IMG/VR virus record: IMGVR_UViG_3300010885_031376
Span: 1 to 35,605 of that record
Strand: one strand, 5' to 3'
Origin: a virus
Length of the DNA: 35,605 nt
Position 1 is the first letter of the stretch. Every line of letters starts with the position of its first letter. Of the stretch, positions 16,124-35,605 are shown in pieces. Made by a program: the position numbers and the translations under genes. The notes beneath the pieces were generated by a model that worked only from the letters and a program-made list of their open reading frames with translations, had not been told where the DNA came from and did not search any database.

Positions 16124-16834
16124 TTAACCGCAAAACCATTGGTTAGCGGCCTGACAAAAACAAATCATTGTCTTTCCGCCTTGCCCGGTTACGCCCTGAA
16201 CGTAAGCAGTATTCGCGCCCAACGCGTTAATAGTTGCGCCGGTTGCTGGAAAAACTTTCGCAAACTTATTCGTTACACCGTTTTGGATAAAATGAACTTC
16301 CCCGATATTTCCCGCTGCGCAAGCTGGAAGAGTAACCACTTTTGTTTCGTCAAAGCCTGTTACTTGATGAAAGAATTTACCCGCCGTTAGTGGTCCGTCA
16401 CCCTGAACAGATGTCCCCGCGGCTACCGTTTCAATTACAGAAGCACTTTGTTGAACCCCTGCTGAAGCTGTAACGATCCCCGTGCTTGAAATTGTTCCTG
16501 TATTGGTTACGCCCGTAGTTGTGATGGCACCAGAAAAAGATCCCGTGCTTCCGACAACCGCACCTGTATAACCATTAGTATCAATTTTACCTTTTTCGGT
16601 TCCGTTAACAGTAACAGAAAGTTTTTTCCCGGTCGCAACCGGGAGGACGATATTGAGGTTCGTATCTACCCCGATCATGTTTTTATACATGTAACGCGAA
16701 ATGGCGGTAGAAAGCCCTAGCACCGACATTTGATCGGCGCTATTTGGGTAAATCGCTTCCGCAATCGGAATGCAACAAAACGACGTAATCAACACAAGCG
16801 CCGTAATTATGTAACTCTTTTTAAGCTTTCTCAT
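16124..16834 (-). CDS. Fibre-like virion protein with N-terminal signal peptide
   Basis: A 236-aa protein that starts MRKLKKSYIITALVLITSFC and has an AEA cleavage site near residue 27, a textbook Sec signal, which is unusual for a virion gene. After it come Gly/Thr/Ser repeats (GSTGSFSGAITTTGVTNTGT) typical of fibre shafts and a beta C-terminus (NIGEVHFIQNGVTNKFAKVF). It may be a short head or tail fibre. Export of a virion protein would be hard to explain, so the hydrophobic start could instead be a membrane-binding or assembly segment. Confidence 0.6.
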   Translation of the reverse strand: MRKLKKSYIITALVLITSFCCIPIAEAIYPNSADQMSVLGLSTAISRYMYKNMIGVDTNLNIVLPVATGKKLSVTVNGTEKGKIDTNGYTGAVVGSTGSFSGAITTTGVTNTGTISSTGIVTASAGVQQSASVIETVAAGTSVQGDGPLTAGKFFHQVTGFDETKVVTLPACAAGNIGEVHFIQNGVTNKFAKVFPATGATINALGANTAYVQGVTGQGGKTMICFCQAANQWFCG

Positions 16835-28334: not shown

Positions 28335-28679
28335 TCAGTCATTGGCTTGATCGTATCGATGCAGCTCAAAGATCCGCGACTGCTCAAACAATTTCTCTAA
28401 TTTGCGCATGTCCAACATCGGCAATCCCAGGCTAGCCATTACCCAACGATATGAGCCCTCACGCGCATTGTCGCTGCGAAACCATCTGCGAGCCTCGCGG
28501 CGGATGTCGTCCCTAACAAGGGCGTTCGGCGGGCCTCCATTACGAGCTTTTGCGCCCGTCGCGTCGCAGTATGCGCGATACAAGATCGCGGACAATAACC
28601 GTCGGCACGCGTGCGTTTCGGCGTCCGCCAAAAAATAATCAAGGCCATCCGCACGCACATCAAATTTAATTTGACCCAT
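28335..28679 (-). CDS. Small protein with HTH-like pattern (114 aa)
   Basis: A 114-aa protein. The pattern DIRREARRWFRSDN...SYRWVMASLGLPMLDMRKLEKLF resembles a widespread small phage family with an AREWF...F..IC..LGLDP core of unknown function, whose C-terminal half looks like a helix-turn-helix. It may be a late-gene regulator. It starts 14 bases inside the end of the DUF5675 gene. Confidence in any function is low. Confidence 0.6.
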   Translation of the reverse strand: MGQIKFDVRADGLDYFLADAETHACRRLLSAILYRAYCDATGAKARNGGPPNALVRDDIRREARRWFRSDNAREGSYRWVMASLGLPMLDMRKLEKLFEQSRIFELHRYDQAND

Positions 28680-29073
28680 AGTTTTCCTCGATAACCAGTT
28701 GCGCGGTTTTAATGCCCGCCATTTGCCTCATAAATTCATTGAACGCGATTCTCGACGAAAGCACAGCAGGTAAGCCAACTAGATAACCGCTGCGCATTCC
28801 GAGTAATATACAACCGTGGGTATCACTGCGGGTATTGCCGACGTGGATCAAAATATCGCCCCGATTAGGGACACCGATTACCTCGTAAACATCGCCAAAC
28901 TTAGGCGATTGGTGCAGTTGAATGGTGTATGTTCCTACGGGAATACAAGAGAGGTTTGGTAGGTTGCTTAACCAGCATAATTCTAGTGTGCAACATGACC
29001 AACCGCCGTCTAATTCCAGCGTGCCAAGTGTGGTATTTTGCGCCAGAGAGCGGCGAGTGAGGAGTAGGTTCAT
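28666..29073 (-). CDS. DUF5675 family protein
   Basis: A 135-aa protein with the DUF5675 layout: LLTRRSLAQNTTLGTLELDG at the start, CTLEL, a central IPVGTYTIQLHQSPKFGDVY, then IHVGNTRSDTHGCILLG. Several of these proteins sit in phage lysis clusters and are suspected to act on the cell wall, but activity is not established to my knowledge. Here it is near the secreted and holin-like genes. AGGAG near the start supports initiation at 29073. Confidence 0.8.
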   Translation of the reverse strand: MNLLLTRRSLAQNTTLGTLELDGGWSCCTLELCWLSNLPNLSCIPVGTYTIQLHQSPKFGDVYEVIGVPNRGDILIHVGNTRSDTHGCILLGMRSGYLVGLPAVLSSRIAFNEFMRQMAGIKTAQLVIEENYGSN

Positions 29074-29420
29074 AATCTACAATTATCTCGTAGGTAATAG
29101 GTTTGTGACGGACATGACGGAGTGACGGACTTTTCTAGTTCGTCCTGGAGAAACGTAATAAAATAGTAGTATAGTAGGGATATATTTATATTTGTAATAT
29201 CTATATATATAATTATTTGTCATGTCTGTCATAAAAAGTATAATATATAATAAAAACAACAATTTAACCGATGACGGACCACAAAAAAAGTCCGTCATAA
29301 GTCCGTCACAATTCTGCAAAAGTCTGTCATTCATACATATCTTCCATGCTTCTTCTCGGACTATTAACCGCAGCAAGTTTGTTGCAATATTCCTCAGTAA
29401 AAAAAAGTCCGTCATAAACT
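29074..29420. other. Iteron cluster around AT-rich stretch; candidate replication origin
   Basis: TGACGGAC occurs at 29106 and 29123 (with one-mismatch TGACGGAG at 29115), and at 29272. The reverse GTCCGTCA occurs at 29290, 29301 and 29407, with one-mismatch GTCTGTCA at 29224 and 29322. The right-hand copies start 11 and 21 bases apart, so they face the same side of the helix. Between the groups lies about 100 bases of almost pure A/T (29157-29260). The neighbouring gene is a D5-type helicase, and the last copy lies inside its 3' end. The gap of 253 bases between genes holds no convincing ORF. Confidence 0.7.
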
Positions 29421-31012
29421 CGCTTTTTTGAATCCCGCAGCCTCTTTAAATTCCGCTGTGAAAGCTCCATTCCAAACTTGTTTTTACCCATGTGCCCCCG
29501 ACCATTTTCCTCTGCCCAGATCTCAAAAACGGCATACATATCGCTCGCTGAGATGCTCATATCTGCCATCGGAATAGTGCAGCAATCTAAGAATTGGCCC
29601 ACTATATCCATATCGTTTCTATATTCTTGACTAGCTTGCTTAACTTTGTCAGGTATAGCTAATCCCTCTCGCTGCCAATCTAAACAACCCTCTAAGGCCC
29701 ACATTAAAACGCCACTGAGCTCGCGGTTTACAATCTTATTCCGCAGCTCCTTGTCTTGTTCTGATTCTGGGATCTGGGCCTCAAACGGGATTAGCTGTAT
29801 CCTTTTCCACATCCCGGCCGACGAGTCAGATACGTCCGGTTTGTTGTTTCCGCGTATCATGAGCTTACATTGCGGTTTAAAATCGAAGAATTCTTTGCGT
29901 AGGAATCTAGCGGTAATAATGTCACCGCCGGTAAGGTCCTTAATCAAGGCGTCGTTCCATTCCTCGCCTTTTCCGGTCTCGGAGACTGTCGCGAGGCGAG
30001 GACCACAAAGCCGCGCAACATCGTTTGGTATGCCCTGATTACCGTATTTTTTCTTAATCAAAGTTTCGGTGCTAAGGGCCAGCGAGTAGTCGCCAAGAAG
30101 GGCGTGCAGAACTTCGATAAATACGGTTTTGCCGTTGTCACCGCTGCCGTAGCAAAAAAAGAAGCACTTTTCAGCGACACTGCCGGTTAAGCAATATCCC
30201 GCGGCGCGCTGTAGGTATTTCTCAAGTTGCGCATCCCCTTGAGTAATTTTTTTTAAAAATTCTAGCCATAGTGGGGCTTCTGAGCTATCAACACCATATG
30301 TTGCGGGTGATATACGCGTGCATAAAGCAGTGCGCTCGTGGGGCTGCAATAAACCTTTTTTGAGGTTTAGTAGTCCGTTTTGGCAGTTAAGTAACCACGG
30401 GTCGGCGTCGAAATCTTTCATTTCGGCGCGAATCGAGTTGTGAGAAGAGGACAAAAATACAATTGCGCGAAGACGGCTCGCGTCCTGCGAGCTTTTCGCC
30501 CAGTCTAATAGGGTCTCCTTTTTGTCGCCGGTCGCGAGCTTTGCCTCCTCCAAAATCATGCTAGACGTTTCTTTTGCGAGCTCTATCGCATCGTGAGAGC
30601 CGTTCTCCCACAATCCGCCGTTCCAGTGTAGCCACCCCAGCTCGTCCGTATAGCGCATGTCGCGCCCAAAATATTTTACAAATCTATTAGAGTTGGCGAG
30701 ATCTGAGTTAAGAATTCCAGCCTCTGCTTTTGCTGCTTTTTTGCTTTGATTTTCCGCTTTCAAATTGGCTTTGCGGATTGACCTGATTTGCTCCTTATAG
30801 CTGCTACCATCTGCCGGGTGCTGCTGGAAATGATCACAGAGAGTTTTGACTATATCTATATCGTAGGATGGGGGGAGATTTGCGGCGCGTTTGAAAATTC
30901 GCATTGTCTTGAGCATCGTCGGGCGGTCCGCCCAGACTGGAATAGTTAAAATACAATCCTGAATGGATTTTAATTCAACGAGAAACTCGTCAGTTGTATC
31001 TTCTTGCGCCAT
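29327..31012 (-). CDS. D5-type SF3 helicase (primase-helicase C-terminal type)
   Basis: A 561-aa replication protein. The D5 N-like region has WLLNCQNGLLNLKKG (about residues 206-220). The SF3 core has Walker A GSGDNGKT at 289-296, a Walker B-like ATVSE near 341-345, sensor KLMIRGNNKP at 383-392 and arginine finger MWKRIQLIPF near 401-410. No archaeo-eukaryotic primase domain is visible at the N-terminus, so the host or another protein may supply priming. It is the first leftward gene, preceded by AGGGG, and probably opens the adjacent iteron origin. Confidence 0.88.
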   Translation of the reverse strand: MAQEDTTDEFLVELKSIQDCILTIPVWADRPTMLKTMRIFKRAANLPPSYDIDIVKTLCDHFQQHPADGSSYKEQIRSIRKANLKAENQSKKAAKAEAGILNSDLANSNRFVKYFGRDMRYTDELGWLHWNGGLWENGSHDAIELAKETSSMILEEAKLATGDKKETLLDWAKSSQDASRLRAIVFLSSSHNSIRAEMKDFDADPWLLNCQNGLLNLKKGLLQPHERTALCTRISPATYGVDSSEAPLWLEFLKKITQGDAQLEKYLQRAAGYCLTGSVAEKCFFFCYGSGDNGKTVFIEVLHALLGDYSLALSTETLIKKKYGNQGIPNDVARLCGPRLATVSETGKGEEWNDALIKDLTGGDIITARFLRKEFFDFKPQCKLMIRGNNKPDVSDSSAGMWKRIQLIPFEAQIPESEQDKELRNKIVNRELSGVLMWALEGCLDWQREGLAIPDKVKQASQEYRNDMDIVGQFLDCCTIPMADMSISASDMYAVFEIWAEENGRGHMGKNKFGMELSQRNLKRLRDSKKRVYDGLFFTEEYCNKLAAVNSPRRSMEDMYE

Positions 31013-31405: not shown

Positions 31406-31506
31406 TGTTAGTAGTAATTGGTTTTATCCCCGGCGGCATGCTTGGTTGGTATTTTGCCGGAAAACTTTTAAAAAGCAGTAAACAATGGGATCGAAATGGC
31501 AACTAA
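31405..31506 (+). CDS. Tiny membrane protein (33 aa)
   Basis: ATG 31405 overlaps the previous TAA. The 33-aa product MLVVIGFIPGGMLGWYFAGK is almost one membrane helix followed by a basic tail (LLKSSKQWDRNGN). It overlaps the next gene by 11 bases. Real translation is likely but not certain because of its size. Confidence 0.5.
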   Translation: MLVVIGFIPGGMLGWYFAGKLLKSSKQWDRNGN

Positions 31507-31702
31507 ATCTTTTGGCGCGTGGCTTGAATTGCAAATCTTTGGCGCTGGTTTAACGCGTCAACAATTCGCCAAAAAAATGCGAGTGCATGAAGCAACTATC
31601 GGCAATTGGATTGCGGGCAAATCAGTGCCTTACGATAAAAATCTTTTGGCGTTAGCAAAAGTTTTTAAAATGGACGCAACAAAAATAAAGGGAATGCTAT
31701 GA
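31496..31702 (+). CDS. XRE-family helix-turn-helix regulator (68 aa)
   Basis: A 68-aa protein with a single HTH: TRQQFAKKMRVHEATIGNWI then AGKSVPYDKNLLALAKVF. The size fits a Cro-type DNA-binding protein. It lies about 300 bases downstream of the divergent control region, whose TTATAAAA repeats and palindrome are candidate operators. No CI-type partner or integrase is present, so it may time early transcription instead of maintaining lysogeny. Confidence 0.8.
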   Translation: MATKSFGAWLELQIFGAGLTRQQFAKKMRVHEATIGNWIAGKSVPYDKNLLALAKVFKMDATKIKGML

Positions 31703-32943: not shown

Positions 32944-33623
<680 letters not shown>

Positions 33624-33627
<4 letters not shown>

Positions 33628-35209: not shown

Positions 35210-35605
35210 CCGATAGACTAATTTACATAGTGCCAAACGAGGCAAGTGAGAAAATTGGAATTTCTTTCGGCGCAACTGTGTCGCAAATTCCAAAAGGCGG
35301 TGAAAAATCAGAATTGATTTATTTGGCCGTCGAAGTCGCTGAATTATGGCACGTCACGGAAATGTTAAAAACTGTTCGAGCGAGGATGGGCGAAATAAAA
35401 ACGGAGCCAAAAGAAATAATGCTTTCAGCACCGCTTTATCTTGGCGTAATTGCCTGCTTGCGCGCGCACGCGAAAGAATTCCAGCACTCGCATACATGCC
35501 CAGATTGTTTTCATTACGATGGTTTTTTGTTTTCCTGTGTGTGCGAAGCGGAAAGGGCGGTGTCGGTTCGGCTTAAAGGTCCCGCAATTTTGCGGGCCGC
35601 TATTC
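35206..35605 (+). CDS. Cysteine-rich protein, N-terminal part (gene crosses contig joint)
   Basis: The ORF starts at ATG 35206 (GGGGGGAG before it) and is still open at the last base. It continues in frame at the start of the window to the TAA at 258-260, giving 178 aa in total. The first ~90 residues (IYIVPNEASEKIGISFGATV, YLAVEVAELWHVTEMLKT) show an alpha/beta domain with no recognised family. Cysteine pairs begin at HTCPDCFHYDG and continue in the part listed at 1-260. Confidence 0.8.
   Translation, partial: MTDRLIYIVPNEASEKIGISFGATVSQIPKGGEKSELIYLAVEVAELWHVTEMLKTVRARMGEIKTEPKEIMLSAPLYLGVIACLRAHAKEFQHSHTCPDCFHYDGFLFSCVCEAERAVSVRLKGPAILRAAI
35483..35605. repeat. Right copy of 123-bp terminal direct repeat
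   Basis: Identical to bases 1-123. It marks circular closure of the contig, or less likely a direct terminal repeat of the virion DNA. Confidence 0.95.

Follow-up and report, generated by a model that had tools for sequence, protein, structure and literature searches.

Two facing iteron sets 3′ of a D5-type helicase gene form a probable replication origin in an uncultivated phage genome

Introduction

In PICIs, the replication origin directly follows rep and invariably comprises two iteron sets that flank an AT-rich region, a plan that was described in 2018 as shared by no other known bacterial replicon (PMC6092414). The Rep protein of SaPIs reads its downstream iteron origin through its C-terminal domain, and the isolated C-terminal domain of Cch2, a D5-type protein related to SaPI Rep, binds downstream repeats as well (PMC7581432). 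Two phage origins are annotated at a comparable place: the rep_origin of Lactobacillus phage A2 (NC_004112, 32208–32717) has its start inside the 3′-terminal part of a D5-type primase gene, and the 302-bp origin of Streptococcus phage Sfi21 is a non-coding region that likewise begins in the 3′-terminal part of the primase gene. A replication-origin function has been ascribed to the Sfi21 element (PMC6356513). The alpha protein of P4 is a D5-type helicase with a C-terminal winged helix that binds octamer repeats, and in pRN1 an essential region lies directly 3′ of the gene for orf904, a helicase that also carries a C-terminal winged helix (PMC4234260).

Here we analyse the window, that is, the whole 35,605-nt stretch of the viral record IMGVR_UViG_3300010885_031376, in which a preliminary description had proposed an iteron-bearing origin recognised by its own initiator. 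The layout conserved among relatives, the annotated origins of A2 and Sfi21 and the published PICI and SaPI origins (PMC6092414, PMC7581432) support this proposal, and we put the probability that the element is a self-recognised initiator-helicase replication origin at about 90%.

Results

Genome context

Because positions 1–123 of the window are repeated identically and directly at positions 35483–35605, we read the genome as a circular assembly of 35,482 bp; identical 123-bp ends mean either such an assembly or a short terminal repeat. Genes lie on the plus strand at both genome ends and on the minus strand from 6.0 to 31.0 kb. The long late-strand block resembles portal, terminase and structural genes in size, order and sequence; the late genes were only partly confirmed by family search, in which the portal-sized protein had no Pfam match. 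Judging from this block, the 35.5-kb record reads as a phage rather than a PICI satellite island, and the element would lie in the circular or circularising genome of an uncultivated tailed phage. A plus-strand protein without a family match (32944–33627) carries a long tail rich in Ala, Asp and Tyr (AAYADADA...) that is encoded by short repeats.

Iteron cluster

The six exact TGACGGAC octamers and three one-mismatch copies (TGACGGAG once, TGACAGAC twice) that had been reported are all present (Table 1), and a genome-wide count confirmed that the sole other exact copy of TGACGGAC is at position 16393. The adjoining gene, which had been taken to encode a D5-type helicase, indeed gave D5_N, DUF5906 and Pox_D5 matches. 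The stretch of about 100 bases first described as nearly pure A/T was roughly right: 29156–29255 is 85% AT and is the most AT-rich 100-mer of the genome. Spacings of 11 and 21 bp place the copies at 29290, 29301 and 29322 in helical phase, as had been noted.

Table 1 Coordinates of the putative origin and its neighbouring genes
Feature	Position	Strand	Remarks
Iteron TGACGGAC	29106–29113	+	Exact; distal set, facing the core
Iteron TGACGGAG	29115–29122	+	One mismatch
Iteron TGACGGAC	29123–29130	+	Exact; inner copy of the distal set
Core between the two inward-facing sets	29131–29223		93 bp, 77% AT; probable unwinding region
Iteron TGACAGAC	29224–29231	-	One mismatch; inner copy of the helicase-proximal set
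Iteron TGACGGAC	29272–29279	+	Exact
Iteron TGACGGAC	29290–29297	-	Exact
Iteron TGACGGAC	29301–29308	-	Exact
Iteron TGACAGAC	29322–29329	-	One mismatch; overlaps the helicase stop codon
Iteron TGACGGAC	29407–29414	-	Exact; within the 3′ end of the helicase gene
Inverted iteron pair (29272+/29290-)	29271–29298		Starts 18 bp apart; 9-bp hairpin
Initiator helicase gene	29327–31012	-	D5_N (1.2e-26), DUF5906 and Pox_D5 domains; AlphaFold model compared with SaPI5 Rep
C-terminal winged-helix domain, probable iteron reader	29399–29578	-	Residues 479–538; predicted fold and covariation
DUF5675 protein gene	28666–29073	-	Next gene after the helicase, same strand
HTH_3 protein gene	31496–31702		2 kb from the element

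The iterons span from about 80 bp before to about 220 bp after the helicase stop codon, that is, immediately 3′ of the initiator gene. On the helicase strand, with distances in bp from the stop codon, > for TGAC... reading along that strand and < for the reverse, their order is >-88 >-3 >18 >29 <48 >95, the 93-bp core, <197 <205 <214. It follows from this order and orientation that the outer sets face each other across the core; the proximal set also contains one facing pair at 18–19 bp. A near-consensus sigma-70 promoter match (TTGTCA-16-TATAAT, 11/12; 29217–29244, plus strand) lies within the AT-rich core and points antisense into the helicase gene, and may be a chance match in AT-rich DNA.

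Outside the cluster, 15 matches with at most one mismatch occur in about 35.3 kb, so that 0.13 copies are expected per 310 bp, against the nine found (Poisson P ~3e-14). The genome-wide one-mismatch total of 24 is unexceptional by itself when compared with shuffled sequences (mean 17, s.d. 4.4); significance rests on the clustering of the octamers. No non-coding 8-mer other than TGACGGAC is clustered anywhere in the genome; a second cluster, at 33.4 kb, is a coding repeat. Cumulative GC skew, which had been suggested as a check, proved uninformative: its minimum is at 30,815, 1.4 kb off and at the gene-strand switch. Because its turning points track gene strand, we rejected skew as evidence, and it lends the origin no independent support.

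The helicase as probable iteron reader

Among solved structures, SaPI5 Rep was the best sequence match to the helicase (E 9e-14 over residues 195–535), and it was also a top fold match (Z 30.5 over residues 102–548) to the AlphaFold model, which has a mean pLDDT of 88. A domain search found no primase domain in the chain. Residues 479–538 are predicted to form a strand-helix-helix-strand-strand block with pLDDT >90, as expected of a winged helix.

Covariation of this domain with the iterons was assessed in 82 helicase pairs (near-duplicates removed) whose cores are at least 70% identical. In these pairs, which are not independent of each other, iteron similarity tracked C-terminal identity (partial rho 0.74 given the core) and showed no such relation to identity of the ATPase core (partial rho -0.04 given the C terminus). 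The word was the same in 23 of 23 pairs with at least 80% C-terminal identity and in 26 of the remaining 59. Three loci, L162, L166 and L173, have cores that are 98–100% identical, C-terminal domains that are 69–78% identical and three different words (CAGGGCA, GGTGTAT and TGGATAG). Among close relatives, the iteron word follows the C-terminal domain and not the ATPase core; at large divergence (core identity below 55%), word and C-terminal identity were uncorrelated.

Layout across D5 loci

Since loci must not be chosen by the motif under study, we collected 80 D5 loci from viral contigs by protein alignment only, which gave 79 testable regions including that of the window. Within a 700-bp stretch surrounding and following the helicase stop codon, a 7-mer was repeated significantly relative to shuffled sequences (p≤0.01) in 26 of the 79 loci, compared with 2–4 of about 70–80 in each of four control regions. 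More than half of the protein-selected loci had no significant exact repeat at p≤0.05 in this test, which misses degenerate repeats. A further 80 D5 loci were taken from named records of bacterial and archaeal genomes. In both sets together, a word with at least five copies was present in 59 loci, two facing sets in 50 of these, and a core of 47–92 bp in 33 of the 50, whatever the word. The words varied widely (TGACAGA, TGACGCA, ACCCTCC, AGTTACT, CGGACAC, GTGAATA and others). Because orientation was picked to maximise convergence, only the two-set symmetry is informative for these other words; with the word fixed as TGACRGR, a manual count gave more inward than outward copies in 24 of 30 loci and the reverse in none. 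The expectation that relatives would keep the repeats beside the helicase therefore holds for the layout, the same word being retained in a subset only. Previously recognised in a handful of phages and phage-dependent islands, this origin layout is common next to this helicase family, and the repeat 'password' differs per lineage.

We also searched by the DNA pattern itself. Three close TGACGGA copies occurred in 95 viral contigs. In 14 of them the locus also includes a D5-type helicase, mostly as the immediate neighbour of the cluster; the reversed control pattern occurred in 31 contigs, and in none of these was a D5 helicase close to it. The helicases of the 14 loci are just 22–37% identical to that of the window. 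The order of the window from >-3 to <214 (>-3 >18 >29 <48 >95, core, <197 <205 <214) recurs almost exactly in L032, L132 and L267, including the facing pair at 18–19 bp. Many of the 95 contigs were set aside, their repeats being collagen-like coding repeats or lying beside terminase genes; in L012, L089 and others, numerous TGACGGAG tandem repeats lie in large open frames, where they encode collagen-like repeats.

Clusters of TGACGGA[A/T] were also seen in intergenic DNA beside genes for DUF3987 (L003, L009, L069, L090), VapE-like (L016) and Prim-Pol plus AAA_25 (L008) proteins, whose helicase parts differ from D5; the convergent layout is unclear beside the DUF3987-type initiators. In Acidobacteriota (Bryobacterales/Solibacteraceae and others), repeats of the TGACGGA/ATGACGG type lie 3′ of D5 helicases (L262, L263, L266, L267, L269, L272, L274, L277), and some of these genomes have two such repeat-helicase loci each. 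Searching phage records at the DNA level with the helicase and origin region returned no match, single-protein searches of viral contigs gave almost none, and a literature search found no relevant paper on TGACGGA as a replication repeat.

Alternative explanations

The repeats might instead be an operator array at the junction of the helicase and late genes, bound by a transcription regulator such as the HTH_3 protein, whose gene is 2 kb away; promoter-like hexamers do lie within the core, though AT-rich DNA yields such matches easily. If so, copies would be expected at other operators, as the preliminary description had pointed out, yet there is none with at most one mismatch between 29414 and 33663, including the divergent intergenic region beside the HTH_3 gene. 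Operators also would not explain why such a variety of words appears in convergent sets, with a core of fixed length, downstream of D5 helicase genes, and the annotated origins of A2 and Sfi21 at this very spot argue against them too. We consider an operator array improbable.

More improbable still is that the region following the helicase gene acts as a transcription terminator or an RNA element. The 9-bp hairpin (29271–29298) does stand just beyond the stop codon, and the region as single-stranded DNA folds better than shuffled sequences (z -2.6), with pairing mainly from the inverted iterons; a terminator scan found none at the element, however, Rfam gave no match for it, and such a reading leaves the other copies and the two-set layout unexplained. 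We give just as little credence to a centromere-like partition site or a packaging site. Iterons are known at partition sites too, but no ParA- or ParB-like protein was found among the genes scanned, which cover part of the genome, and the large terminase is 2–4 kb off, whereas the repeats of relatives stay with the helicase.

Discussion

Our analysis establishes the repeats, their layout and their position; it also shows that this layout recurs across the helicase family and that word and C-terminal domain covary. By analogy with known relatives, we propose how a replication origin of this kind would work. The D5-type helicase encoded immediately upstream would read the TGACGGAC iterons through its C-terminal winged-helix domain. 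Because two iteron sets face each other across the 93-bp AT-rich core, two hexamers probably load, one on each side; once loaded, they would melt the core and move apart, and replication would start bidirectionally. As no primase is fused to the helicase, this function is presumably supplied by a separate phage or host protein.

For D5 phages and prophages in general, we somewhat favour a scheme in which the layout is constant and the octamer is free, being set by the C-terminal winged helix, with a wing that can change while the core stays 98–100% identical (L162, L166, L173); TGACGGA might in this scheme have arisen more than once, with DUF3987, VapE-like and AAA_25 prim-pol initiators arriving at it on their own. 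If this is true, nature has provided in these loci a collection of matched initiators and origins from which the code by which protein reads DNA could be deduced. Since iteron word and C-terminal domain change together, origin specificity is open to direct test. An uncultivated phage gains a putative origin and its probable reader. The phage loci suggest that the plan described as unique to PICIs is not confined to them but is widespread beside D5-type helicases in phages and prophages, and because it is widespread there, the origins of many metagenomic phages should be predictable from a few hundred bases 3′ of the D5 gene.

Among the systems compared, pRN1 differs in that its origin is a 100-bp stem-loop without iterons. 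P4 resembles the present locus in that alpha is followed directly by crr, which contains type 1 repeats; unlike here, the P4 origin proper (ori, 9.1–9.8 kb) stands some 4.5 kb away from the stop codon of alpha, the primase is part of alpha itself, and the type 1 repeat is another word, TGTTCACC. The locus agrees with PICI and SaPI origins in that it directly follows the initiator gene, that two iteron sets surround an AT-rich region, and that the initiator is a helicase related to Rep, self-loading in that system and of D5 type in SaPI5 Rep, with a C-terminal DNA-reading domain (predicted here at residues 479–538); it differs in its octamer and in its setting, a phage genome with portal-like and structural genes. 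The Sfi21 repeats, with the word GTAACTA, converge on a very AT-rich core where the primase gene ends. In A2, whose word is ACGGGAGG where the window has TGACGGAC, there is no match to the window at the DNA level, yet the iterons (>-10 >8 >20 >84 <161 <169 <237) converge at nearly the same spacings around an AT-rich core, and, as in the window, the origin overlaps the 3′ end of a D5-type gene.
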